Shown here: positions 31,109-49,670 of the stretch, piece by piece
Numbering within the stretch: the first letter of the stretch is position 1
How the letters are laid out: each line of letters opens with the position of its first letter
Source of the DNA: Synechococcales cyanobacterium C42_A2020_086
Lineage (GTDB): Bacteria; Cyanobacteriota; Cyanobacteriia; Elainellales; Elainellaceae
Assembly: GCA_015272325.1 (NCBI GenBank)
Contig: JACYLU010000017.1
Span: forward strand, 62,001 to 126,000
Direction of reading: 5' to 3'
Length of the DNA stretch: 64,000 bases
The notes under the pieces: generated by a model
Databases searched by the model: none
What the model was told of the DNA's origin: nothing
Seen by the model: only the letters and a program-made list of their open reading frames with translations
Made by a program: the position numbers and the translations under genes

Positions 31109-32890
31109 ATGTCAACCGAACGCCCACCCTTAGAAGAAATGACCCTCCGACAACTGCGTCGAGTTGCCAGCGAATATGGGGTTTCCCGCTACAGCCGGAT
31201 GCGGAAGGAGCAACTCCTGGAGGCGATCAAAGAGGCTCAACGAAATCGTTATACGCCTAGTCCATCTCGTACATTGGAGGCCCAAGCAGAAGTGGCAGCA
31301 GCAAAGTTTGATGTCGGGCAGACGGATCGCAGCGGCGGTTCCCTCGCCATCGTGGATGAGGGACTTCCGGATTTGCCAGACGGTTATGGAGAAAGCCGAA
31401 TTGTTCTCCTGCCGCGTGATCCCCAGTGGGCCTATGCCTATTGGGATGTGTCCAATGAAGCTAAAGAAGCATTGCGGCGTCAGGGCGGTATCCGGTTGGC
31501 TCTGCGCTTCTACGACGTCACCGATATCAATATAGAAGTTCAGCGACCGCACAGCTTACAGCAGTATGAATGCGATGAGCTAGCCCGTGAATGGTATCTG
31601 CCCATTCCGGTCAGCGATCGCGACTATGTGATCGAAATCGGCTACATTACAGGGGACGGGCGCTGGCTGCTGCTAGCACGATCGGCAGCGGTTCGCATCC
31701 CGCCAGTTTACCCCTCTGATTGGATCGATGATCAGTTCATCACGGTAGGTTGGGACGACGAGCTGCGCAGCAAGATTTTCTTGGAGTTGAGCCAACCTGG
31801 AAAGTCTGCGGCTGCTCGGACAGGTCCGCTCTACGATCAGGTGTTTGAACTGGCTCAGGTGGCCGAAGCGCAACGGGTCGCTGGCTCAGTCTTTGGCTCA
31901 GTACAGCAGGTGCCTGAAGAAGCAATCAGCTCCTATGTGTTTCCGTCGGGAGTTGGCAAATGGGCATCGACGGAGTCGGGCGTAGGCATGATGTCGGGCG
32001 TAGGCATGGCTGTCACCGGCATGTCGGGTGTGGGCAGAATGTCAGGCGTCGGTCTGTACAGCGAGTCCGGGGTGGGCAGGTACAGCGAGTCGGGCGTCGG
32101 TCTATACAGTGAGTCCGGAGTGGGCATGTACACCATGTCTGGTGTAGGTGTTACCGGCATGTCGGGGATTGGCATGATGTCTGGCGTGGGCATTACCGGC
32201 ATGTCGGGGATTGGCATGATGTCTGGCGTGGGCATTACCGGCATGTCGGGAATTGGCATGGGCGTTGCTGGTATGTCGGGCGTGGGCATGTACACCATGT
32301 CTGGAGTGGGCAGGTACAGCGAGTCGGGCGTCGGTCTATACAGTGAGTCCGGAGTGGGCATGTACACCATGTCTGGTGTAGGTGTTACCGGCATGTCGGG
32401 GATTGGCATGATGTCTGGGGTTGGTCTGTATAGCGAATCGGGCCTGGGCATGTACACCATGTCTGGAGTGGGCAGGTACAGCGAATCGGGCGTCGGTCTG
32501 TACACCATGTCCGGTATGGGTTTGTATAGCGAATCGGGCGTGGGCATGTACACCATGTCCGGTATGGGTATGTCGGGTGTGGGTTTCTCCGCCTCGATGC
32601 CGCCGATTCGGCCGCGCCAGTTCTGGTTAATTGCCGATGCAGAGCTGATTGTGTATGGAGCAACCGAACCGGATGCCACGGTCACGATTGGCGGCCGACC
32701 CGTCAAGCTCAATCCAGACGGCACGTTCCGCTTCCAAATGTCGTTCCAGGATGGATTAATCGACTTCCCGATCATGGCAGTGGCAGCCGACGGCGAGCAA
32801 ACTCGCTCCATCCACCTCAAGTTCAATCGGGAGACACCGGAGCGCCGAACCAACACCAAGGAAGAAGCGGTGCTGGAGTGGCTCCCCTAA
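31109..32890 (+). CDS. DUF4912 protein with a long SGVG-type repeat tract
   Basis: A 593-residue protein with four parts. (1) Residues about 10-45 are a Rho-N/SAP-like helix pair (LRQLRRVASEYGVSRYSRMR, then KEQLLEAIKEAQ), often nucleic-acid binding. (2) Residues about 85-215 are DUF4912 (RIVLLPRDPQWAYAYWDVS, then LALRFYDVTDIN and WYLPIPVSDRDYVIEIGYI). (3) Residues about 288-494 are a repeat tract of SGVG/SGIG blocks separated by MYTM, RYSE, LYSE, VTGM or MM. (4) A C-terminal domain (RQFWLIADAELIVYGATEPD, ATVTIGGRPVKLNPDGTFRF) resembles the second half of DUF4912. Function unknown. The repeat tract is much longer than linkers usually are. Confidence 0.85.
   Translation: MSTERPPLEEMTLRQLRRVASEYGVSRYSRMRKEQLLEAIKEAQRNRYTPSPSRTLEAQAEVAAAKFDVGQTDRSGGSLAIVDEGLPDLPDGYGESRIVLLPRDPQWAYAYWDVSNEAKEALRRQGGIRLALRFYDVTDINIEVQRPHSLQQYECDELAREWYLPIPVSDRDYVIEIGYITGDGRWLLLARSAAVRIPPVYPSDWIDDQFITVGWDDELRSKIFLELSQPGKSAAARTGPLYDQVFELAQVAEAQRVAGSVFGSVQQVPEEAISSYVFPSGVGKWASTESGVGMMSGVGMAVTGMSGVGRMSGVGLYSESGVGRYSESGVGLYSESGVGMYTMSGVGVTGMSGIGMMSGVGITGMSGIGMMSGVGITGMSGIGMGVAGMSGVGMYTMSGVGRYSESGVGLYSESGVGMYTMSGVGVTGMSGIGMMSGVGLYSESGLGMYTMSGVGRYSESGVGLYTMSGMGLYSESGVGMYTMSGMGMSGVGFSASMPPIRPRQFWLIADAELIVYGATEPDATVTIGGRPVKLNPDGTFRFQMSFQDGLIDFPIMAVAADGEQTRSIHLKFNRETPERRTNTKEEAVLEWLP
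31974..32590 (+). repeat. In-frame repeat tract of the DUF4912 gene
   Basis: About 620 bp coding for SGVG-type units, mostly 24 bp (8 residues), in places 42 bp (14 residues, three copies from 32161). A 113-bp segment (32072-32184) is repeated without any change at 32306-32418, offset 234 bp (78 codons). Perfect identity over 113 bp, including third codon positions, points to recent duplication or gene conversion inside the gene. Confidence 0.9.
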
Positions 32891-37243: not shown

Positions 37244-39910
37244 ATGGCGTTTCCCTTTCCTAGGTTCAATCGTGTCGCTCCGGCGGTTTCCTCAATGCAG
37301 TTTTCGTTGCGTGTGGTAGAGGAGGCTGAAACTGAACTGGGAACGCTGCTGACTAAATTAGATACCTATCGCTATGGATTGACCGCAGCCGAGTCCCGTC
37401 GGCGACTCAAGCGATATGGCTGGAATGATGTGACCCATGAAGCCCCGCTGCCGTGGTATCGGCAATTTCTCAAGTCCTTCAACAACCCCTTTGTCTATTT
37501 GCTACTAGGATTGGCCATTGCCGCGAGCTTGACCCGGCAACTTCCAGAAACCCTGGTGCTGCTGGGAATGGTTTTCTTGAGCGGAGTGTTGCGCTTTATT
37601 CAGGAATACCGCTCGACCCAAGCCGCAGCAAAACTATGGGCGATTGCTGGAGCCACTGCCCTGATTAGCCGCTATGACGATCTTGTCCCGCGGGAACGGC
37701 AACAGCGAGTGCCAATTCGCAAGCTAGTGCCTGGAGATATTGTGCATTTGTCAGCGGGCGATATGGTCCCTGCTGATGTGCGGCTGCTTCAAGCAGAACA
37801 TTTATTTGTCAGTCAAGCCATCTTGACCGGAGAATCCAACCCAGTGCAAAAGCACGATACGTTGGGCAGTCGAGTCGAGAAAATGGCGATTCGGTATCAC
37901 CAAACCAATGATCCCTTCCAGACCCCGACGGTCTGTTTCATGGGAACAACCGTGATTGGAGGTCGGGCCAAAGCCGTTGTGGTGGCTACAGGTAACCAAA
38001 CTTATTTGGGATCTCTGTCTCAGGCTATTGCCGGTAAACGGGCGCGCACAAGTTTTGAAATGGGAATTAATCGAGTCACCGGGCTGCTGTTAGGGTTTAT
38101 CGCGGTTCTGGTGCCGATTGTGCTGCTGATTAACAGCATCAATTATGACGATTGGAATGAGTCCTTCCTGTTTGCGATTGCGGTTGCGGTGGGTCTGGTG
38201 CCAGAGATGTTGCCTCTGGTGGTGAGTGCTAACTTAGTACGGGGCGCCACGGCCCTGTCTAAGCAAAACGTGCTGGTAAAACGGCTGGATGCCATGCAGA
38301 ATTTAGGCGCAGTCGATATCCTCTGTACCGATAAGACCGGCACCCTGACCCAAAATCATATTTCCCTGATGGAACCCGTAGGAATTGACGGGACGGTAAC
38401 AGAAGAGCCGCTGCGATATGCCTATCTCAATAGCTATCACCAGACCGGGATCCGCAATGCATTAGATGCCGCCATCTTGGAATGCAGAGCGTTGCCCGCT
38501 GAGTTGAATCCGGAAACCGCTCATGCCAAGTTAGGAGAAATTCCCTTTGACTTTGTGCGACGCCGATTGTCAGTTGTTGTAGAGCAGGATGGAGTGCCCT
38601 GGTTGATTTGCAAAGGCGCAGTGGCAGAAGTGATCACCCTTTGCACAACCGCCCAATGGCAGGGGCAAGTGGTTCCCCTAGCACCGACTTTGTATCAAGA
38701 AACGCTGCAACGGGTCCGTCAGCTTCAGGCAGATGGACTGCGGGTGCTGGCTGTTGCCTATCGCCGCTTCTCGGCACCCAAAGAAAGGTATAGCCCAGAC
38801 GATGAGGTTGACCTGACCTTAGTAGGCTATGTCACGTTTCTTGACCCCCCCAAAACCAGTGCCAAAGCAGCGATCACAGCATTGCAAGAGCACGGAGTGG
38901 CCGTCAAAGTGATCACGGGCGATGAGGAAACCATTACCCGGCGGATTTGCCAGGAGGTAGGAGTTGCGGTGCAGCAGGTCTACCTGGGTGCTAGCGTTGA
39001 GCGGATGACAGACGCCGAACTCGCGGATGCGGTGGAAGAAGCGACCATCTTTGCCCGCATGTCGCCTGCTCAGAAAGCTCGCGTGATCCGCATTCTCAAG
39101 CAGGCAGGACACGCAGTGGGCTACTTGGGCGATGGCATTAATGATGCTCTAGCCCTGCGCGATGCCGATGTTGGTATTTCCGTCGATACGGCTGCTGATG
39201 TTGCCAAAGAATCGGCCGACATCATTCTGCTGGAAAAGAGTTTGATGGTGTTGGAGCAGGGAATCATGGAAGGTCGCCGCACCTTTGGTAACCTAACCAA
39301 ATATCTCAAGATGGCAACCAGCTCCAACTTTGGCAACGTCTTTAGCGTCGTGGGAGCCAGTGCATTCCTTCCGTTTCTACCGATGCTGCCCCTGCAACTT
39401 CTGGTGCAAAACCTGCTGTATGACCTGTCGCAAATTGCTATCCCCTTCGACCGAGTGGATGCGACCTATCTCGCCAAGCCGCAAGCCTGGTCTGCATCGG
39501 ATCTGCGCCGCTTTATGCTGCATTTGGGGCCTGTCAGTTCTGTATTTGACTATGCCACCTTTGCTCTACTCTGGTTTGGCTTGGGAGCAACTACCGACGC
39601 CAATGCTGCTTTGTTCCAGTCTGGCTGGTTTGTGCAAGGCTTGCTCTCCCAAACCCTGATTATTCACCTGCTGCGAACCGAGAAAATTCCCTTCCTGCAG
39701 AGCACAGCAACGCTGCCGGTATTGGTCATGACCGGACTGGTCATGGTGATTGCCCTGTTGCTGCCCTTTACCTCTCTGGGAGCCACTCTGGGGTTAGTGC
39801 CACTGCCGGCGATCTATTTCCCCTGGCTGATAGTGATTCTGGTTGGTTATGGCCTGCTGACCCAGATAGTCAAAATGGCGTACATCCGCCGATTTAAAGC
39901 CTGGCTGTAA
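37244..39910 (+). CDS. mgtA: MgtA-type (P3B) magnesium-translocating P-type ATPase
   Basis: An 888-residue P-type ATPase. The phosphorylation motif DKTGTLT is at D363, TGES is present (AILTGESNPVQK) and GDGIND is at about 630. The membrane block VAVGLVPEMLPLVVSANLVR, then GATALSKQNVLVKRLDAMQN, and the C-terminal LLVQNLLYDLSQIAIPFDRV, are diagnostic of MgtA/MgtB rather than calcium or heavy-metal pumps. MgtA imports Mg2+ when it is scarce. It is followed on the same strand, after 233 bp, by an HMA-EamA fusion gene. mgtE and an mgtC family gene lie within 14 kb. Confidence 0.9.
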   Translation: MAFPFPRFNRVAPAVSSMQFSLRVVEEAETELGTLLTKLDTYRYGLTAAESRRRLKRYGWNDVTHEAPLPWYRQFLKSFNNPFVYLLLGLAIAASLTRQLPETLVLLGMVFLSGVLRFIQEYRSTQAAAKLWAIAGATALISRYDDLVPRERQQRVPIRKLVPGDIVHLSAGDMVPADVRLLQAEHLFVSQAILTGESNPVQKHDTLGSRVEKMAIRYHQTNDPFQTPTVCFMGTTVIGGRAKAVVVATGNQTYLGSLSQAIAGKRARTSFEMGINRVTGLLLGFIAVLVPIVLLINSINYDDWNESFLFAIAVAVGLVPEMLPLVVSANLVRGATALSKQNVLVKRLDAMQNLGAVDILCTDKTGTLTQNHISLMEPVGIDGTVTEEPLRYAYLNSYHQTGIRNALDAAILECRALPAELNPETAHAKLGEIPFDFVRRRLSVVVEQDGVPWLICKGAVAEVITLCTTAQWQGQVVPLAPTLYQETLQRVRQLQADGLRVLAVAYRRFSAPKERYSPDDEVDLTLVGYVTFLDPPKTSAKAAITALQEHGVAVKVITGDEETITRRICQEVGVAVQQVYLGASVERMTDAELADAVEEATIFARMSPAQKARVIRILKQAGHAVGYLGDGINDALALRDADVGISVDTAADVAKESADIILLEKSLMVLEQGIMEGRRTFGNLTKYLKMATSSNFGNVFSVVGASAFLPFLPMLPLQLLVQNLLYDLSQIAIPFDRVDATYLAKPQAWSASDLRRFMLHLGPVSSVFDYATFALLWFGLGATTDANAALFQSGWFVQGLLSQTLIIHLLRTEKIPFLQSTATLPVLVMTGLVMVIALLLPFTSLGATLGLVPLPAIYFPWLIVILVGYGLLTQIVKMAYIRRFKAWL

Positions 39911-40143: not shown

Positions 40144-41331
40144 ATGCGCGATGATACTACCCTGTCCGTCATTGTGGTTCATACCACTGCCAGTCGCTCT
40201 CGGTTTCGCATTCCTCGCCTAGCCGAAGATCCAGTGTTTATAGCCCATCTACTCCAGCAAACCTATGCCCTAGCAGGCATCACTGCCGCACGAGTCAATT
40301 CCCTAGCTCGATCCCTGATTGTGCATCATGAGCCTAGTGTACGAATTGCAGACCTGCACTCCCGGATCACGGAGGCTACAAAGCGGGCGGCTACCCTCTC
40401 CCTGTCGGGGCAACTGCCCTCACACTCCTGGGAATCTGAAGTAGAACTGTCTGCCTCAGGAGCATGGCCAGCTATTGGTTGGGTCCTCCTGGCAACGGGT
40501 AGCTACGCTACTTTGCAGGCAACCATTCGCTTGATTGCTGGGAGCCTCCACCCCTTTCAAATTGTGTTCTTAAACAATCTGTTTGCAGTTGGGTTGCTGC
40601 TGCCCGTGTTGACTGTTGATGGTCTGAGCACCACCAAACTGCCGCTCCATGGGCTACGAGCAATTCTGGATGCGGGAGCGTCGTTACTGTTGGTATCGGG
40701 GCTGAGTTTGCTGCCCCTAGCCCAGGTCAATGCCTTGGGCGCCACCACCCCCCTGTTTGCGATGATGGGTGCCTCTCTCGTTTTGGGAGAAGCCTTACGC
40801 CCCCAACGGTGGATTTCTCTCCTGCTGGGAATGGTTGGGATGCTGGTGATTGTGCGTCCCGGTTTAGCCGGAATGGGTCTAGGTGCACTGCTGACATTGG
40901 GTGGCTCGATCGCGTTTGCAGGGGTGGTGCTGCTGCTCAAGGTTCTGTCTCGCACAGATTCCAGCCTGACGATCATTGCCTACAACGCCCTTCTGCTTAC
41001 CCCCCTGACCTTTATTCCAGCACTCTGGGTGTGGACTGTTCCCACGCTAGGGGAACTAGCTCTATTGACCGCGGCGGCTGCCCTGGGTTTAGTGGGTCAA
41101 ATCTGTATGTTTCAGGCGCTAGAACAAGCAGATGCCACTACCGTATTGCCTGCGGATTTTGCTCAGTTTGTTTGGGCGAGTGTCTTGGGCTTTGTGCTGT
41201 TCCAAGAAGTGCCTGATCTGTGGACTTGGCTAGGGGGACTGCTGATTTTTGCTGGAGTCATTGGTGTGGCAAATTCAGAACCCGAGGAACCCAAGGAGCA
41301 AGCTTGCTTACTGCTGCTGGAGAGTGCTTAG
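40144..41331 (+). CDS. EamA/DMT transporter fused to an N-terminal HMA-like domain
   Basis: About 395 residues from the ATG at 40144; a TTG at 40102 is an alternative. Residues about 5-95 (VVHTTASRSRFRIPRLAEDP, then AGITAARVNSLARSLIVHHE) align by eye with the N-terminal domain of the P-type ATPase at 43.8-46.5 kb (IVHRTTHRIRIRIPRLRNDP, RMNAFAESIVVEYRP). This is the HMA_2-type ferredoxin-like fold without the CxxC metal pair. Residues about 110-380 have about 10 membrane segments with two EamA repeats (QVNALGATTPLFAMMGASLV, then GMLVIVRPG). DMT proteins export small metabolites; the substrate here is unknown. I know of no described EamA protein with this domain. Its 3' end overlaps the convergent ATPase-like gene by 24 bp. 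Confidence 0.85.
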   Translation: MRDDTTLSVIVVHTTASRSRFRIPRLAEDPVFIAHLLQQTYALAGITAARVNSLARSLIVHHEPSVRIADLHSRITEATKRAATLSLSGQLPSHSWESEVELSASGAWPAIGWVLLATGSYATLQATIRLIAGSLHPFQIVFLNNLFAVGLLLPVLTVDGLSTTKLPLHGLRAILDAGASLLLVSGLSLLPLAQVNALGATTPLFAMMGASLVLGEALRPQRWISLLLGMVGMLVIVRPGLAGMGLGALLTLGGSIAFAGVVLLLKVLSRTDSSLTIIAYNALLLTPLTFIPALWVWTVPTLGELALLTAAAALGLVGQICMFQALEQADATTVLPADFAQFVWASVLGFVLFQEVPDLWTWLGGLLIFAGVIGVANSEPEEPKEQACLLLLESA

Positions 41332-43539
41332 TGAATCATGCAGATGAGGGTCTGGAGCAAACCAGAAGGGGCGCAGAGCGTTTAAAACCGCGAGTAAATT
41401 CACGGCGTTGTTGATCACGACCACTAGAATTGGATCGAGAATCAGCAATATTCCCAAGGTCGTTGCCCCTAGGTGCGGCAAGGTAATCAGGGCAATATTT
41501 TGTTGCACTAGGGCCATTGCTTCATCGGCGATGTTGAACGCCGTCACTAACGTCAGGAGATTTCCGTAGGGCAGTCGAATGTCTGCGATGCGCTGAATCG
41601 ACGGGCAAGAGTGATGCCTGCCTACAGCGATATCCGCATAGCAGAGGGCAGGATAGTCATCCATACCTTCGCCCATGTAGACCACCGTATGCCCCTGCTC
41701 CTGAAGACGGCAAACAAAGGCTTTTTTGTCTTCCGGGGTGAGTTCGGCGAAAACGGCACTGGGGTCTAGCCCAACTTGAGAAGCAATCGCGGCTGCCACG
41801 TCGGAGGCACCCCCCGTAACAACATACACCGTCAATCCGCGCTGCTGTAGGTAAGACAATACCGCTCGACTGTCGGGATGGACGCTGGCACAGCAGATGA
41901 TCTGACCCATGAGCTGCCCGTCTACAGCGATGTAGATGTACCAATAGCCTTGATACTCTCCATCTCGGGCTTGAGAGGGAGGGGCGACCGCGTCAGGAAA
42001 AGCAATGCCAGCCTGATTCAAATAACTACAGCTACCTACAAGAACCCAGTAACCATTGACCTGAGCGGAAATCCCCAGACCTTGACTTGTTTGAAGTGCA
42101 CAGGCTTGGCTGAGCGGAATGGTCAACCCTCGCTGTTGGGCGTAGGCTGTAATGGCTTGGAACACCGGATGCTGAAATTTGGCTTCACACTGCCCCGCTG
42201 CTGCCGCTAGTGCCAATAGCCAGTTTGCTGGGTCGGAGCCTGGGGAAGAGATGGGCATGTTTGAGTGAAGGTCTGAGTGAAGGATCTCAATCGCCACCAC
42301 CGATAGCTCTTTGCCAGTTAGGTTGCCTGTTCGTGCAAATACCACCGTATCGGCTTGGGTCAATAGCTCAAACACTCGCCCCGAGCGGATGTAGATATTT
42401 TGCTGCTGAGCATAGAGCATCATAGAAAGAATAGCTGTGGGCGCAGAGAGTCGCACCCCGGTCACCAGATCCAATTGGAGGGGGGCTAACGCCCGTTCCA
42501 GGTTCTGGGTCCATAACAATAAACCGCCCGAAAGCGCTAAAGTCGGCAAAATCAGAGTCTCACCGACGATTTTGGCGTAGTCACTCAGCTGCGTTTGGTG
42601 CAGGGGAGCCGCCTCTGCCAACAGCACCTCCTGAGCATATTGCGTCTGATCGCCCAGAGACTCTACCCGTACCCGGATCTGTCCATCCATGACCGTACAG
42701 CCTGCTGGAATCGGGTTGCCCATGCCTACGGGTAAGGGAGCCGGTTCACCCGTCAGGATGCTGAAATCTAACCAGGCTTCTCCTTCCAAAATGAAACCAT
42801 CGACGGGACAAGTATCCTCTGCAATCAGCAGAATTTGGTCGCCGGGGCCCAACTCGGACAGTGGCAGCACTTGCGGTTGTCCCTCTCGGATCAGCCGCAC
42901 TCGCTGTACATCGGGAAGGAGGCTAGTTGAGGGTATGGCTGGTGCCCTCTCGTAGGTCGACTCCTGGAGCCAGTCGCCGGTTTCAGCGAGAACCAGATCC
43001 AGATTGGGTGCGACAAAATCTCCAGTCAACCCGTGAAAAATCGTCCAGAGGGATTCCAAAATTTCTTCATCCACTTTCCCTTGAGCTAAATCCTGACGAG
43101 TGCGCTCTAGAACTGGAAAAGCCGCCACTAGAGTAACCATCCCTAAGACTATGGGAGGAATTGCCAATTCCATCGCTCCTGCCAGGACGGCCAAACCCAA
43201 GCCCAATGCAGGTAGAGCAATTCGCTGGAGCAACTCGAGTTCTGATGGTTTGCTCGACGGCTTCGCAGGGTCAGGAGGGGGCGGCAATGGCCCTTCTAGC
43301 GGAACCTGCTTCATAAACTGCTGCACCTGCGCCAGGATAGCCGTTGCTGTGGATTGAGCCGGTGTGTATTCAATAATCAGAGAGCAAGCCGGATAGTTGA
43401 CTCGAATTTGCCTGAACCCAGGATGAGCAAGCAGATGCGTTTGCACCGCCTCCGCCCAACCAGACGCATGCCGCATCCCAGCAATTCTCAGTCGTAAGCG
43501 TCCCGGGATCTGGTGAACAATCTGGATCTCGCCGCTCAT
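41308..43539 (-). CDS. P-type ATPase homologue with a mutated phosphorylation site (pseudo-pump)
   Basis: About 743 residues from the ATG at 43539; a TTG at 43551 is also open. The N-terminal HMA-like domain (IVHQIPGRLRLRIAGMRHAS, then RVNYPACSLIIEYTP) is followed by a proline-rich linker and a P1B-type core. TGE (about 263-265) and HP (about 457-458) are kept. The DKTGTLT motif reads ARTGNLT (about 402-408; the codon at 42334-42336 is GCA for Ala), TGD reads TGG, and GDGxND reads GEGMDD. CPC is replaced by SAP. The frame is intact, so the protein is probably made but cannot form the aspartyl phosphate. It sits right after a small DUF454-like gene and downstream of an intact paralogue. Confidence 0.85.
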   Translation of the reverse strand: MSGEIQIVHQIPGRLRLRIAGMRHASGWAEAVQTHLLAHPGFRQIRVNYPACSLIIEYTPAQSTATAILAQVQQFMKQVPLEGPLPPPPDPAKPSSKPSELELLQRIALPALGLGLAVLAGAMELAIPPIVLGMVTLVAAFPVLERTRQDLAQGKVDEEILESLWTIFHGLTGDFVAPNLDLVLAETGDWLQESTYERAPAIPSTSLLPDVQRVRLIREGQPQVLPLSELGPGDQILLIAEDTCPVDGFILEGEAWLDFSILTGEPAPLPVGMGNPIPAGCTVMDGQIRVRVESLGDQTQYAQEVLLAEAAPLHQTQLSDYAKIVGETLILPTLALSGGLLLWTQNLERALAPLQLDLVTGVRLSAPTAILSMMLYAQQQNIYIRSGRVFELLTQADTVVFARTGNLTGKELSVVAIEILHSDLHSNMPISSPGSDPANWLLALAAAAGQCEAKFQHPVFQAITAYAQQRGLTIPLSQACALQTSQGLGISAQVNGYWVLVGSCSYLNQAGIAFPDAVAPPSQARDGEYQGYWYIYIAVDGQLMGQIICCASVHPDSRAVLSYLQQRGLTVYVVTGGASDVAAAIASQVGLDPSAVFAELTPEDKKAFVCRLQEQGHTVVYMGEGMDDYPALCYADIAVGRHHSCPSIQRIADIRLPYGNLLTLVTAFNIADEAMALVQQNIALITLPHLGATTLGILLILDPILVVVINNAVNLLAVLNALRPFWFAPDPHLHDSLSTLQQQ

Positions 43540-43554
43540 TAAAATGGTCAATCC

Positions 43555-43809: not shown

Positions 43810-46539
43810 CTACGCTTCCCTGCGCCGTGCCTGCCAGGCCTCTCCAGCGCGCCGTGCAGGAAAAGTATGTACAGGAATGGGTTTAGCTCGTATCGGACGA
43901 AAGACCTGAGAAGACGCTTCATAGGTCCAGGCGACACCGTCCGGATCACGGTCACGGCTCCACTGGCCAAAGTTCTGCTGCTGTTTGCGGCGAGAGATGG
44001 TTTGGGGCGAAGTTCCTAGTCGAGTGGCCAGCTCTTTCTGGATCAAGGTATCGAGTCGGGAGACAGGAAGCGAAACTGCCTGAATCGCGGATGCAGATAT
44101 GGTAGGTGTCCGGGGTCGGTCTTTTGCTGTCTGAACCTCGCCCCATTCCGATTGAAAGGATTGCTCTTGATCGGTTGTCGTGAGAGAGATGACCGCCGGT
44201 TGTGATGCTATCATCGAGCTGAACCCATCCATCGTCACTTGACTGGGTCCCAAGAGTGGGCGGAGACCGTTGAGTTCTGCCAGAATGGCTGACCCATTAT
44301 TGATCAAGATAGCCAGAACAGGATTGAGCGCAAAGAGGACTCCTGCCAGCACCGCACTCAAGTTCGGCACAATCACCATCGCAATGTTCTGAGTAACGAT
44401 TTCCATTGCATGTTCGGCAATGTGCAGAGCCTGAAGCAGTTGCGTCAGCCGGTCGTCCATTAGCACCACATCGGCTGTTTCTCGGGCAATGCCGCTGGCG
44501 GCCGCAAAGGAAATAGAAACATCGGCATATGCTAGAGCGGCGGAGTCGTTGATGCCATCTCCACAAAAGGCAACGGTCTTGCCACTCTCATGCAGGGCTT
44601 GCACCACCTCTACTTTGCGCTCTGGGAACGCCTCTGCATAGACGTTGCCTCTGGGAATGCCTAAATCGTCCGCAATCGCATTGGCAATGCGGGCTTCATC
44701 GCCACTCAGGATGTAGACCTCAATGCCGCGTGCCTGTAGGGCTTGTACCACAGTGCGGCTTTCCGCTCGCAGCGGATCGCTATATAGAATTACCCCCATC
44801 AAGTCACCATCAATGGCGACATAAACTAGCGAGTGCGGCCCGGATTCCAAATCCGGATAGCGATTGTGCAGTTCTTGTACTGGGATCTGCCATGTGGTCA
44901 TCATCCGATGGCTGCCAACTAGCACTGTGCGCCCATCAATGTGCGCTTTGACCCCTAGCCCGACGTGATACTCCCATTCATCGCACGATCGCAAAGATAG
45001 CTGCAGGTTGCGAGCATGGCGAATGATTGCCTCTGCTACTGGATGCGTCAAACCTTGCTCGGCGGTTGCTGCCATTGTTAGGAGGTGAGTTTCAGAGACA
45101 TCCGATCTCAGCAGCTTGATGCCAGTCACGCCGGCTTGTCCTTGAGTCAGGGTGCCGGTTTTGTCAAAGACAATCACATCGACATCGCACAGCAGTTCGA
45201 TTGTGCGTCCGGTGCGAATCAGAATACCGTTGCGAGCGGCATAGGTGAGAGCAGACAGTACAGTGGTTGGCACGGAGATGCGAATCCCGGTGCCCACATC
45301 GAGTGTCAGAAGTGAAATAGCGCGACCGACATCGCCACTAACCGTGCCGACTATCGCCGAGAGCAGCAGCGTCGGAGCAACGAGCTGGTTAGCAATTCTC
45401 GTCGCAAAGTTAGAAACGCGCGTATCGTGAACTGGAGCAGACTGCATAAGATTGGCAATCACCCCCGCTCGGGTATTGGCTCCAATGCGTTCCGCGACAA
45501 TACACAGATGACCGTCTACCAGGATCGTGGAAGCGAAGACCTCTTCCCCTTTTACTCGCGTCACAGGGATGGATTCCCCAGTGAGTTTGCACTGATCCAC
45601 TAGTCCTGCTCCCCGCACAATCGTGCCATCCACTGGAATCAGGTCCCCTGGGTAAACTATCACGCGGTCGCCCACAATCACTTGGTCGATGGGAACGTGC
45701 AACTCACGCCCATCCCGCTCCACAATCGCCTCGGTTCCCAAACAGCTCAGCAGGTCCAAAGAAGCGCGGTTGCTGCTGCGAGCAGTAATGTCTCGAATGA
45801 CCTCCCCACCTTCTACCATCCCTAGCATCAAGGCGGGTGCAAAGAAGCTGCCCTGAATCGTATGTAGAGTAATGGCTAGACCATCTAACAGATCAATTGA
45901 CAGTTCTCGATCGCGGAAGAGAGCAGAAAAGGCTCGATCGTACACTGGACGAGCTGCAATTAGAATGACCGCTCCAACCATGAGAGCAGGCAGCGGCACT
46001 TCGATCATCGCCGCAAAGCCCAATAGCAAACCCAATCCCGGTAAGCCCAACCGCTCCCATACATCCACCCCTTCAGACTCGGATTCATCCTGGGACTCTG
46101 GATTTAGAGCCAGAACGGCCTCTAAGCTGACCTCGGATGCTCGCTGAATGGCTTGAACAATCTGAACCTCAACGGCTGCAACTGCCTCTGGACTGATCTC
46201 GGGGCGATATTCCACCACAATCGACTCTGCAAAGGCATTCATTCGAATTTGATCTATCCCCTCAAAGCCTTGAATCAGGCTGCGCAGTGTCTCGGCATAT
46301 TCCGGGTCATTCCGCAGTCGAGGAATGCGAATACGAATGCGATGCGTGGTGCGATGAACAATCCTATACTCAACTAGGTATTCAACCAGAGATGGTGAGA
46401 CCTCAAAATGGTTGTCAAGTTGCATAGAAGAACCTAGCTTGGAAGCAACTGCTACCAAGGGTTGAGATTCAGAAGCGTCAGAGACCATTTTCCTCGGGAT
46501 GGGCCAATGGTGGATGACCGTATGGCTATTAGAGAACAT
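43810..46539 (-). CDS. P-type ATPase with HMA-like N-terminus and HTH-like C-terminal tail
   Basis: Up to 909 residues; a start at 46488 (GAGGAAA close upstream) is an alternative. Order: HMA-like domain without CxxC (about residues 55-115); membrane helices; actuator with TGES (319-322); helix with ISVPTT (421-426) where P1B pumps have CPC; D459-KTGTLT; HP (499-500); GDGIND (660-665); final helices. Residues about 825-880 then carry DTLIQKELATRLGTSPQTIS, RRKQQQNF and SRDRDPDGVAWTYE, a helix-turn-helix-like unit followed by an RDPDGxAWxY motif seen at the ends of other cyanobacterial proteins. The catalytic machinery is complete. The transported ion is unknown, since the metal-site motif is atypical. 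It is downstream of DUF5132. Confidence 0.87.
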   Translation of the reverse strand: MFSNSHTVIHHWPIPRKMVSDASESQPLVAVASKLGSSMQLDNHFEVSPSLVEYLVEYRIVHRTTHRIRIRIPRLRNDPEYAETLRSLIQGFEGIDQIRMNAFAESIVVEYRPEISPEAVAAVEVQIVQAIQRASEVSLEAVLALNPESQDESESEGVDVWERLGLPGLGLLLGFAAMIEVPLPALMVGAVILIAARPVYDRAFSALFRDRELSIDLLDGLAITLHTIQGSFFAPALMLGMVEGGEVIRDITARSSNRASLDLLSCLGTEAIVERDGRELHVPIDQVIVGDRVIVYPGDLIPVDGTIVRGAGLVDQCKLTGESIPVTRVKGEEVFASTILVDGHLCIVAERIGANTRAGVIANLMQSAPVHDTRVSNFATRIANQLVAPTLLLSAIVGTVSGDVGRAISLLTLDVGTGIRISVPTTVLSALTYAARNGILIRTGRTIELLCDVDVIVFDKTGTLTQGQAGVTGIKLLRSDVSETHLLTMAATAEQGLTHPVAEAIIRHARNLQLSLRSCDEWEYHVGLGVKAHIDGRTVLVGSHRMMTTWQIPVQELHNRYPDLESGPHSLVYVAIDGDLMGVILYSDPLRAESRTVVQALQARGIEVYILSGDEARIANAIADDLGIPRGNVYAEAFPERKVEVVQALHESGKTVAFCGDGINDSAALAYADVSISFAAASGIARETADVVLMDDRLTQLLQALHIAEHAMEIVTQNIAMVIVPNLSAVLAGVLFALNPVLAILINNGSAILAELNGLRPLLGPSQVTMDGFSSMIASQPAVISLTTTDQEQSFQSEWGEVQTAKDRPRTPTISASAIQAVSLPVSRLDTLIQKELATRLGTSPQTISRRKQQQNFGQWSRDRDPDGVAWTYEASSQVFRPIRAKPIPVHTFPARRAGEAWQARRREA

Positions 46540-46736: not shown

Positions 46737-47087
46737 CTACTCGGAAATAATTTCAACGGCTCTCGGCGGAGTGGGTTGCTCTTGCACCTTTGCTCGGGCT
46801 GCTCGATGCTCATCCTTCGCCTCAGCCACGAGATCATTAAAGGATTCTTGCGCGTCTGCAAAGGTAGACTGTATCCCTTCAATCACATCCATTCCCCAGA
46901 TCAAAGCACTTTTTGTCGCCTCCCGTGCCGACTGGGAAACCGATTCTCCTACTCCATTCAGCTTCTCGTCTTCTTTCACCCAATTGCCCACCGTATCCAC
47001 GACTGGTGCTAACAGGACTGCCCCAACCCCAACCGCTAGCGCAGTAATCGGCTCGATTCCCAACAACAGAGCTTCTAGTTCAAACAT
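46737..47087 (-). CDS. DUF5132 domain-containing protein
   Basis: A 116-residue protein from the ATG at 47087. FELEALLLGIEPITALAVGV, then GAVLLAPVVDTVGNWVKEDE gives one Gly/Ala-rich membrane segment, followed by an amphipathic helical half (ESFNDLVAEAKDEHRAARAK). DUF5132 genes occur beside HMA-type P-type ATPase genes in cyanobacteria, as they do here, so it is likely an accessory subunit or membrane adaptor of the pump. It is the first gene of the minus-strand operon. Confidence 0.8.
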   Translation of the reverse strand: MFELEALLLGIEPITALAVGVGAVLLAPVVDTVGNWVKEDEKLNGVGESVSQSAREATKSALIWGMDVIEGIQSTFADAQESFNDLVAEAKDEHRAARAKVQEQPTPPRAVEIISE

Positions 47088-47790: not shown

Positions 47791-48293
47791 CTGCATTTCT
47801 ATCGCAAGATCGACAAGATCATTTGCCGCCAGTGAGCTGTGAACGTGCGCTGTGCAAGCTCTTTGTTTGTATTCGCTTTTTGCTCACGGTTCATCAAGGC
47901 TGTGAGGAGTTTGATTTGAAAAACAGCGAAGGATTGAGCATAGGAATGAATTATTTCTGTTTCTCTATGCTTAGTCGCTTTCGTTTTATCGTGAAGTGAC
48001 AGCCTGATTGTCATTCGGTTTCCTTGTAATTTCTCATCATTCCTCCCTAATCTTTCCTGCTAGGCATCCGTTTCTGATGCCGAAATCTCTGATGCTGAAA
48101 TAGGCCGACCTCCGATGATTGCATTCGGACGTTTGACCTGACCCATTGGGCTACCTTTTTTCAGAATTGTCTCAAAGACTTACTTAGAAATCTGCCCAGT
48201 ATTGATTATTCGTTGATTGCGCTTTCACAGCTCTGCAATTCAATACTGTTCTGTCATTTACTGTTCATTTACTGTTATTTCAGGAGAAGACCA
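47791..48293 (+). other. Remaining mgtE leader
   Basis: 503 bp with no supportable gene. TCCGA-N9-TCGGA (about 48112-48130) is a possible hairpin and CCTTTTTT follows within about 30 bp, so a premature stop of transcription is conceivable, but the stem is weak. No M-box or yybP-ykoY signature was found. mgtE is preceded by GGAGAAG, an excellent ribosome site. Confidence 0.35.
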
Positions 48294-49670
48294 ATGGCTA
48301 TCAATCCTTTGAACGATCTGCTGGCGTATCCCAAAGCATTGGGAGCTGCTAAACTCACTGCAAATCAGCTCAGCATCTCTGAATTACTGCGGTCACTCCG
48401 CGAAATCGATCCCCATAAGCGAGTGTTGGCGTTCCGGCTGCTAGAGAAAGAGAAAGCGATTGCCGTGTTCGATGCCCTCTATCCTGATGAACAAGCTACT
48501 TTAATCCAGGGTATGACTGATCCGGAAATTTTAGTATTTCTGGAAGCGCTTGAACCCGATCAGCGAGTGCGGTTGTTTGAAGAGCTGCCGGCTAAAGTGA
48601 CTAAGCGCTTGATGAGTCAACTCAGCCCTGACTCTCACCAGGCAGTTGATTTGCTGCTAGGTTATCCCGAAGGTAGCGCTGGACGCCGTATGAGTCTGCG
48701 TTATCTAGCAGTCCGAGAAACAACCGCCGTGGATGCGGTACTCGCTTTGGTGCGGGAATCCTGCCTGCGAGACAATGAACTGGACATGATCTTTGTGATT
48801 GATCAGCAACGGTTCTATCGCGGCTTCGTTCGCACGGTGCGTTTGATGAAAGCCGACCCTGACCTGCCCATTGCACAGCTCATTGATGGTAGAGACATTG
48901 CCATCCCTGCTACAGCACCTGAAATGCAAGCAGTCCGTCTGCTTAAAGACTATGATCTGCCTGCTATTCCTGTGGTGGATAGTGAAGGCCGACTCGTGGG
49001 CGATATTGCCTTTGATGATGTGATTGATTTGATTGAAGAAGAAGCATCAGCTGCTGCCCTTGCTCAAGCGGGAGTCGGTAATCTGCTGGGTCGCGACCAA
49101 GCTTGGAGTGAGAAACTAGTTCGAGGACCCATCCGCTACGCAGTTCAGCTCCGAATCGCCTGTTTAATCATTACTCTGATTGGCGGCATGCTGGTGGGTG
49201 GGGTAATTCAAAGCTTTGAAGAAATCCTGGAAGCGGTTGTTGTAGTCGCCATTTTCATTCCAGTCGTGATGGATATGGGAGGCAATGTCGGTACGCAATC
49301 TACTACGGTTTTTGCACGGGGGCTAGCATGGCAGCATATCGATGTCCGGCATTATGGAACGTATCTGTTTCGAGAGCTTCGCATTGGTCTGATCATGGGG
49401 TTGATTCTAGGAGCGACTGGCGGAACCATTGCCTATGTCTGGCAGGGCGTTCCAAATGGCATCCCTCAACTGGGGCTAGCAGTCGGGCTTTCCTTGTTTG
49501 CGGTTGTTACGCTAGCTGCCGTTTTGGGTGCCCTATTGCCCTGGCTCTTGCTCAAACTAGGCTTTGATCATGGACCAGCGGCTGACCCATTTGTAACTAC
49601 GATCAAGGATTTCACCGGCTTGCTGCTTTACTTCTACTTGGTGAGTTGGCTGCTGGGCATTCAGGCATAA
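48294..49670 (+). CDS. mgtE: Magnesium transporter/channel MgtE
   Basis: A 458-residue protein from the ATG at 48294, chosen because GGAGAAG lies 7 nt upstream; an open frame farther upstream is hydrophobic but unrelated. The N-domain (about residues 25-130; VFDALYPDEQATLIQGM, then LFEELPAKVTKRLMSQLSPD) is followed by paired CBS domains (about 140-265) that sense Mg2+, and then five membrane helices. VVMDMGGNVGTQSTTVFARG and GPAADPFVTTIKDFTGLLLY are the channel motifs. The unusually long upstream region holds the candidate regulatory elements listed separately. Confidence 0.94.
   Translation: MAINPLNDLLAYPKALGAAKLTANQLSISELLRSLREIDPHKRVLAFRLLEKEKAIAVFDALYPDEQATLIQGMTDPEILVFLEALEPDQRVRLFEELPAKVTKRLMSQLSPDSHQAVDLLLGYPEGSAGRRMSLRYLAVRETTAVDAVLALVRESCLRDNELDMIFVIDQQRFYRGFVRTVRLMKADPDLPIAQLIDGRDIAIPATAPEMQAVRLLKDYDLPAIPVVDSEGRLVGDIAFDDVIDLIEEEASAAALAQAGVGNLLGRDQAWSEKLVRGPIRYAVQLRIACLIITLIGGMLVGGVIQSFEEILEAVVVVAIFIPVVMDMGGNVGTQSTTVFARGLAWQHIDVRHYGTYLFRELRIGLIMGLILGATGGTIAYVWQGVPNGIPQLGLAVGLSLFAVVTLAAVLGALLPWLLLKLGFDHGPAADPFVTTIKDFTGLLLYFYLVSWLLGIQA

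Follow-up and report, generated by a model that had tools for sequence, protein, structure and literature searches.

An HMA_2-type domain joined in frame to an EamA permease beside P-type ATPases in a cyanobacterium

In the Synechococcales cyanobacterium C42_A2020_086, a single open reading frame joins an HMA_2-type domain to an EamA permease and lies next to two genes for P-type ATPase-like proteins that carry an HMA_2 domain. The stretch analysed here, called the window, comprises 64,000 nucleotides of contig JACYLU010000017.1, and its relevant features are the following:

40144..41331, plus strand: HMA_2-EamA fusion gene, 395 aa, translation without internal stop, both parts modelled
40168..40407, plus strand: HMA_2-type ferredoxin-like domain (residues 9-88), cysteine-free
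40408..40461, plus strand: linker (residues 89-106), low pLDDT, not conserved
40462..41274, plus strand: EamA/DMT permease (residues 107-377), ten predicted helices
41308..43551, minus strand: P-type ATPase-like protein with HMA_2 domain, ARTGN for DKTGT and GEGMDD for GDGIND
42319..42336, minus strand: ARTGNL, site of the lost phosphorylation aspartate
43294..43530, minus strand: HMA_2 domain of the degenerate ATPase (residues 8-86)
43810..46539, minus strand: P1B-type ATPase carrying an HMA_2 domain; DKTGT intact, CPC replaced by VPT
43891..44043, minus strand: C-terminal HTH-like module of about 50 aa of the active ATPase (residues 833-883)
46123..46374, minus strand: HMA_2 domain of the active ATPase (residues 56-139)
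46737..47087, minus strand: small DUF5132-like protein with one hydrophobic segment and a Glu/Ala-rich stretch

The fusion gene is convergent with the ATPase pair and does not form one operon with it; the 3' end of the degenerate ATPase gene overlaps it by 24 bp. Since DKTGT has become ARTGN in this ATPase, the phosphorylated aspartate is missing. The active ATPase reads INNGSA in TM6, where some other HMA_2 ATPases of the set read IHNGSA; P1B6 ATPases have an HN motif in TM6, in contrast to the NN found here. The small protein matched Pfam DUF5132 with E 0.022, below the cut-off, and has MFELEALL as its likely start; its hydrophobic segment and Glu/Ala-rich stretch were judged by eye. On its flanks the cluster has a cation-transporting P-type ATPase (37244-39910, plus strand) and an MgtE-type divalent cation transporter (48213-49670, plus strand). 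Elsewhere in the window, the protein encoded at 31109-32890 (plus strand) contains an extended series of MSGVG / YSESGVG repeats, and a long open frame lies antisense to its gene.

The fusion is real. The original prediction of an HMA_2-type domain and an EamA permease in one frame of 395 aa was correct in its coordinates, and the residue pairs it quoted for the fusion protein and the ATPase N-terminus are found in the sequence as written. BLASTP matched the fusion protein to the ATPase at 43810-46539 over 95 aa (35%, E 2e-7) and less strongly to the one at 41308-43551, over 57 aa (33%, E 0.003). The model of the whole protein, both parts included, has a pLDDT of 87.7. No ATG, GTG or TTG occurs in the window gene between codons 60 and 124, the latter lying inside the first membrane helix of the model, so that a permease start after the domain, the possibility raised for translation beyond residue 100, is implausible in this gene. 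The two homologues described below have ATGs at codons 102-114, and this argument consequently holds for the window protein alone.

The permease part matched Pfam EamA (PF00892) with E 2.6e-26 and 93 bits against a cut-off of 28.2, in two repeats, and was modelled as a ten-helix DMT fold whose best Foldseek matches were Vrg4, SLC35B1, YddG (5i20) and LicB (E 2e-7 to 5e-6), which bears out the ten-helix EamA permease predicted for this frame. It shares two EamA repeats, ten helices and the DMT fold with known EamA/DMT permeases (PF00892; YddG, LicB and SLC35 folds), from which the fusion protein differs by about 100 additional N-terminal residues. The closest stand-alone cyanobacterial permeases (group f25) lack the domain, to judge from the extent of the match and the length of the frame. 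Five loci of stand-alone EamA relatives, inspected by eye, revealed no constant metal-related neighbour and no hint of a substrate. Related EamA permeases of Alphaproteobacteria often occur as tandem pairs (L111, L112, L117, L118 and L138), which perhaps form heterodimers.

The N-terminal part is related to HMA_2 domains, as the profile comparisons confirmed. Pfam HMA_2 (PF19991) matched the whole protein with E 5.8e-4 (20.3 bits) and its first 99 aa with E 1.9e-4 (21.9 bits), both scores being below the family cut-off of 30 bits. An independent HMA_2 profile of 19 rows, from which the fusion protein was left out, gave it 49.9 bits; the best score in a control of 2000 shuffles of residues 1-105 was 12.2 bits. 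Searched against the PDB, a 12-domain profile with the window domain among its rows led to copper-ATPase domains (CopA 1p6t, E 8e-10). Modelled alone, the domain reached a pLDDT of 86.6, with strands and helices in order and an additional N-terminal strand at residues 10-14. The anticipated ferredoxin-like fold is supported by superposition of this model on CopZ (Z 8.7, rmsd 1.9 A, 64 residues aligned), though the fourth, C-terminal strand is not clear. The same comparison gave Z 8.7 for the N-terminal extension of CzcP and Z 8.1 for MerP, its top row being human NFU1, another small alpha-beta fold protein (Z 9.3), and a Foldseek search with the N-terminal domain alone returned nothing at E <= 0.001. 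Compared with the HMA_2 (PF19991) and HMA (PF00403) N-domains of P1B-type ATPases, the fusion domain is alike in fold and recognisable in sequence, but it scores below the cut-off, lacks CxxC and is attached to a permease.

The view of the HMA_2 domain as a metal-binding part finds no backing in this protein. Residues 1-100 contain no cysteine, and the GMTCxxC loop of CopA aligns opposite non-cysteine residues of the domain profile. A CxxC motif was present in 1 of 134 related domains and any cysteine in 49, the domains being counted in 126 non-redundant ORFs whose partner classes were assigned by simple patterns. Metal binding is thus unlikely, given that this site is absent from the domain and from 133 of its 134 relatives, and to judge from these sequences the fusion domain would hardly be a classical metal carrier.

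A search for the same two-domain architecture in cyanobacteria yielded two further full-length fusions and one truncated remnant. The full-length proteins, from Phormidesmis priestleyi BC1401 (NZ_LXYR01000100.1, L101) and Oscillatoriales cyanobacterium Centralia_MAG_596 (JAJPKC010000217.1, L100), were found on stretches chosen among the matches that a domain profile listed in 388 genomes of this class. Both are about 46% identical to the window protein over their full length, with 34-39% identity in the domain and 51-52% in the permease, and in the linker 1 and 2 of the 11 aligned residues are identical. The core residues H13, R18, R20, N52, A55 and S57 are the same in all three fusions. When a three-row profile was run over the class sample, full-length matches appeared in 3 of the 388 genomes, together with the remnant in genome G574 (L195, 6773-7198, minus strand), a short open frame made of the domain and the first EamA helix; no further part of the permease was found on that contig. 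Two of 42 genomes in group f14 and 1 of 36 in the window's own order have the fusion, and the remnant stands alone among the 38 genomes of its order. Most HMA_2 clusters therefore do without the fusion.

Searches with the fusion protein as a single sequence (P0001) found no relative on the contigs of its own genome; in the phylum sample, 5 of 386 genomes had a match at E <= 1e-20, the query itself being one of these and the others stand-alone EamA proteins. Both searches missed the fusion homologues, which were recovered by the domain profile and the three-row profile. Among plasmids, tblastn gave 239 records, all below 60% identity, and the genes annotated at the two top matches begin downstream of the domain region. 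Across a collection of 84,980 species, the scan was limited to permeases with its two short patterns, and an HMA_2 domain occurred in any frame at 2 of the 80 related-permease loci, the other 78 being judged by HMM to lack it. Since the domain search listed the best matches and a choice of these was read, HMA_2 domains may also be joined to other EamA lineages. A limited literature search found no published report of an EamA protein with an HMA or heavy-metal-associated domain, and as far as our searches reach the HMA_2-EamA protein is a new combination.

HMA_2-bearing P-type ATPases are encoded no more than about 1.2 kb from each of the three intact fusions and from the remnant. Three of these four loci also have a DUF5132-like gene; the contig of the fourth begins inside the ATPase. 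The gene order in Phormidesmis is a DUF5132-like gene, a P-type ATPase with two HMA_2 domains, an HMA_2/glycine-zipper gene and HMA_2-EamA, with an overlap of four bases between the final two; the Oscillatoriales MAG has the same last genes after an HMA_2 ATPase split over two frames. The remnant has an active HMA_2 ATPase on one side and a degenerate one on the other, and a DUF5132-like gene adjoins them. Catalytic aspartates are also lost elsewhere (AKTGT in G574, ARTGT in G506), and further ATPases lack the HAD part in Pfam. Among 63 HMA_2 frames of at least 480 aa, the DKTGT-type motif was intact in 53 and not in 10, which are one lipid kinase (L094), one protein with HMA_2 only in Pfam (L200) and eight ATPase-like proteins, of which L021 is truncated where its locus ends. 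The genome of the window has a second HMA_2 cluster on contig C8 (L036, L037), with three ATPase-like genes, one of them degenerate, and a DUF5132-like gene; an HMA_2 protein of L036 (4495-5283) has a long low-complexity acidic/proline-rich tail.

The domain had been tied to the two kinds of transporter in the window; it is present on both, yet it also occurs on many other proteins, mostly membrane or lipid-related. The partners confirmed by Pfam are ExoD (L081), EcsC (L081, L091, L094), DUF454 (L084) and a DAGK/YegS-type lipid kinase (L094) with the domain at its C-terminus, and those with glycine zippers (L085, L089, L083) scored slightly under the family cut-off. This tally is not a census, as it was drawn from chosen loci among the best matches listed. 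Furthermore, the weakly HTH-like module of about 50 residues at the C-terminus of the active window ATPase is common to HMA_2 accessory proteins. It follows the pattern LAxRL...RR...FxxWS...DPxGxAWxY, occurs in L089, L092, L097 and L083 and has no clear Pfam family; seven frames with the module and no HMA_2 match look like ATPase pieces, ended by the locus end or a frame break.

The proposal that the domain was moved between two transporter folds within this locus is not supported by the permease tree. In this tree of 90 permeases, from which five rows were excluded as too short, the three fused EamA parts, from two cyanobacterial families, formed one clade (100/99), placed beside the stand-alone group f25 permeases (93/96), a join covered by a long-branch warning. 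The single clade implies that the fusion is older than the window locus, an ancient and uncommon event instead of an accident at this place. The domain tree placed the window domain nearest to ATPase domains of G574 (96/81) and not to that of the nearby ATPase at 43810-46539. Nor did blastn of the first 300 bases reveal nucleotide copying from that ATPase, the best same-direction match being 27 bases at 81% (E 0.008). In the domain tree the other fused domains stood apart from that of the window protein, but a single fused clade was not rejected (AU p 0.379). It comprised 121 rows and 84 columns, with domain matches shorter than 63 residues excluded, and it is weak evidence because the columns are few. 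These sequences would fit either one old fusion that diverged afterwards or a domain that was exchanged later.

We consider that the fusion domain has about an even chance of being a docking tag shared with the pumps and not a metal carrier. Such a tag fits a domain found on unrelated membrane partners in shared clusters and kept on dead pumps, and its presence on Asp-less ATPases and on other membrane or lipid-related partners suits a role in assembly better than catalysis or metal hand-over. Of the earlier idea of a shared partner or ligand, the partner is thus sensible and is our best guess, while the metal-binding part fails for want of CxxC. DMT proteins have their N-terminus inside, and the fusion domain would lie in the cytosol. 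There it would join the permease to the assembly used by the ATPases, through pairs formed with further HMA_2 domains or through the DUF5132-like scaffold encoded next to the pump, to which it would bind. In this way a small solute would be carried by the permease at the site at which the pump handles its ion; from the genes nearby, our best guess for this solute is a metabolite that binds metal.

Boudehen et al. have described a platform of this kind in mycobacteria: according to the available part of the source, PacL1 is a small Glu/Ala-repeat protein of the membrane that touches the P-ATPase CtpC at its N-terminal end and collects it in membrane foci, and P1B6 ATPases are accompanied by DUF6110 proteins (PMC9374683). 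In outline the loci studied here may be similar, as a small protein with what looks by eye like one hydrophobic segment and a Glu/Ala-rich stretch is encoded next to a P1B ATPase. However, PacL belongs to DUF1490 and the protein here is DUF5132-like, CtpC has CPC where the window ATPase has VPT, and the part of the source consulted mentions no EamA partner, which the fusion loci have (PMC9374683). The DUF5132-like proteins had no Pfam match to the PacL families (DUF1490, DUF6110). A link to ferrosomes through an HMA domain in FezC was considered and dropped, as FezC appears in the portion of the source available as a DUF4405 cytochrome (PMC10979944); the part of a second ferrosome paper at hand contains nothing on the domain (PMC12574912).

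Other roles can be imagined for the domain. It could be a metal-sensing gate with non-cysteine ligands (His13, Asp29, His61/62), through which high metal opens the permease and a chelating metabolite or metal complex exits. The HMA fold, the match to the extension of CzcP, a metal ATPase, which is among the best in fold, and a His13 that is invariant or almost so in both domain alignments agree with a gate, but the lack of cysteines in the domain and opposite the CopA loop, the absence of CxxC from all but one of the 134 relatives and the position of His13 on the first strand, outside a CopA-type metal loop, make it rather unlikely. Regulation of its own permease only, by dimerisation or autoinhibition and with no ATPase link, would have a precedent on a secondary transporter, since Foldseek matches at E about 0.1 (rows 38 and 50) included 4q2l and 4q2m, the YAM domain of E. 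coli YajR. YAM is a ferredoxin-like domain on a secondary transporter, YajR, of MFS fold, at the other end of the protein. YajR and the fusion protein are alike as secondary transporters with a ferredoxin-like, HMA-like cytosolic domain, but YajR has no tie to P-type ATPases, while the fusion is a DMT protein beside them. Since all four carriers lie beside HMA_2 ATPases, stand-alone homologues exist without the domain and the same domain sits on many unrelated partners, such an internal regulator appears improbable.

A neutral accident, in which a fragment of an HMA_2 gene was joined to the permease and has no function, would agree with the rare and patchy distribution and with the remnant, which shows that the fusion can decay. 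Against it, at the same divergence the domain has kept its 34-39% identity beside 51-52% in the permease while similarity in the linker was lost, and the six core residues were retained in all three proteins; we hold it to be quite improbable. Finally, a wrong start or processing could produce the domain and the permease as two proteins. The ATGs near codons 102-114 of the homologues would allow it, but the stretch of the window gene free of start codons speaks against it, and its probability is very small.

The docking tag could be of wider use. As a tentative and rather doubtful extension, the cysteine-free HMA_2 domain might be a general address tag in cyanobacteria, directing its carriers into one membrane assembly with the DUF5132-like scaffold. 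These carriers would be active and dead P-type ATPases, the EamA permease, ExoD, EcsC, DUF454, glycine-zipper proteins and the diacylglycerol-kinase-type enzyme, and with the same reserve such an assembly might amount to a microdomain of the bacterial membrane that has a targeting code of its own. The docking-tag idea suggests that HMA-like domains can serve as protein connectors without metal. If it is true, it would explain why Asp-less P-type ATPases are kept beside active ones, and the domain would provide a sequence handle for every member of a hidden membrane assembly.
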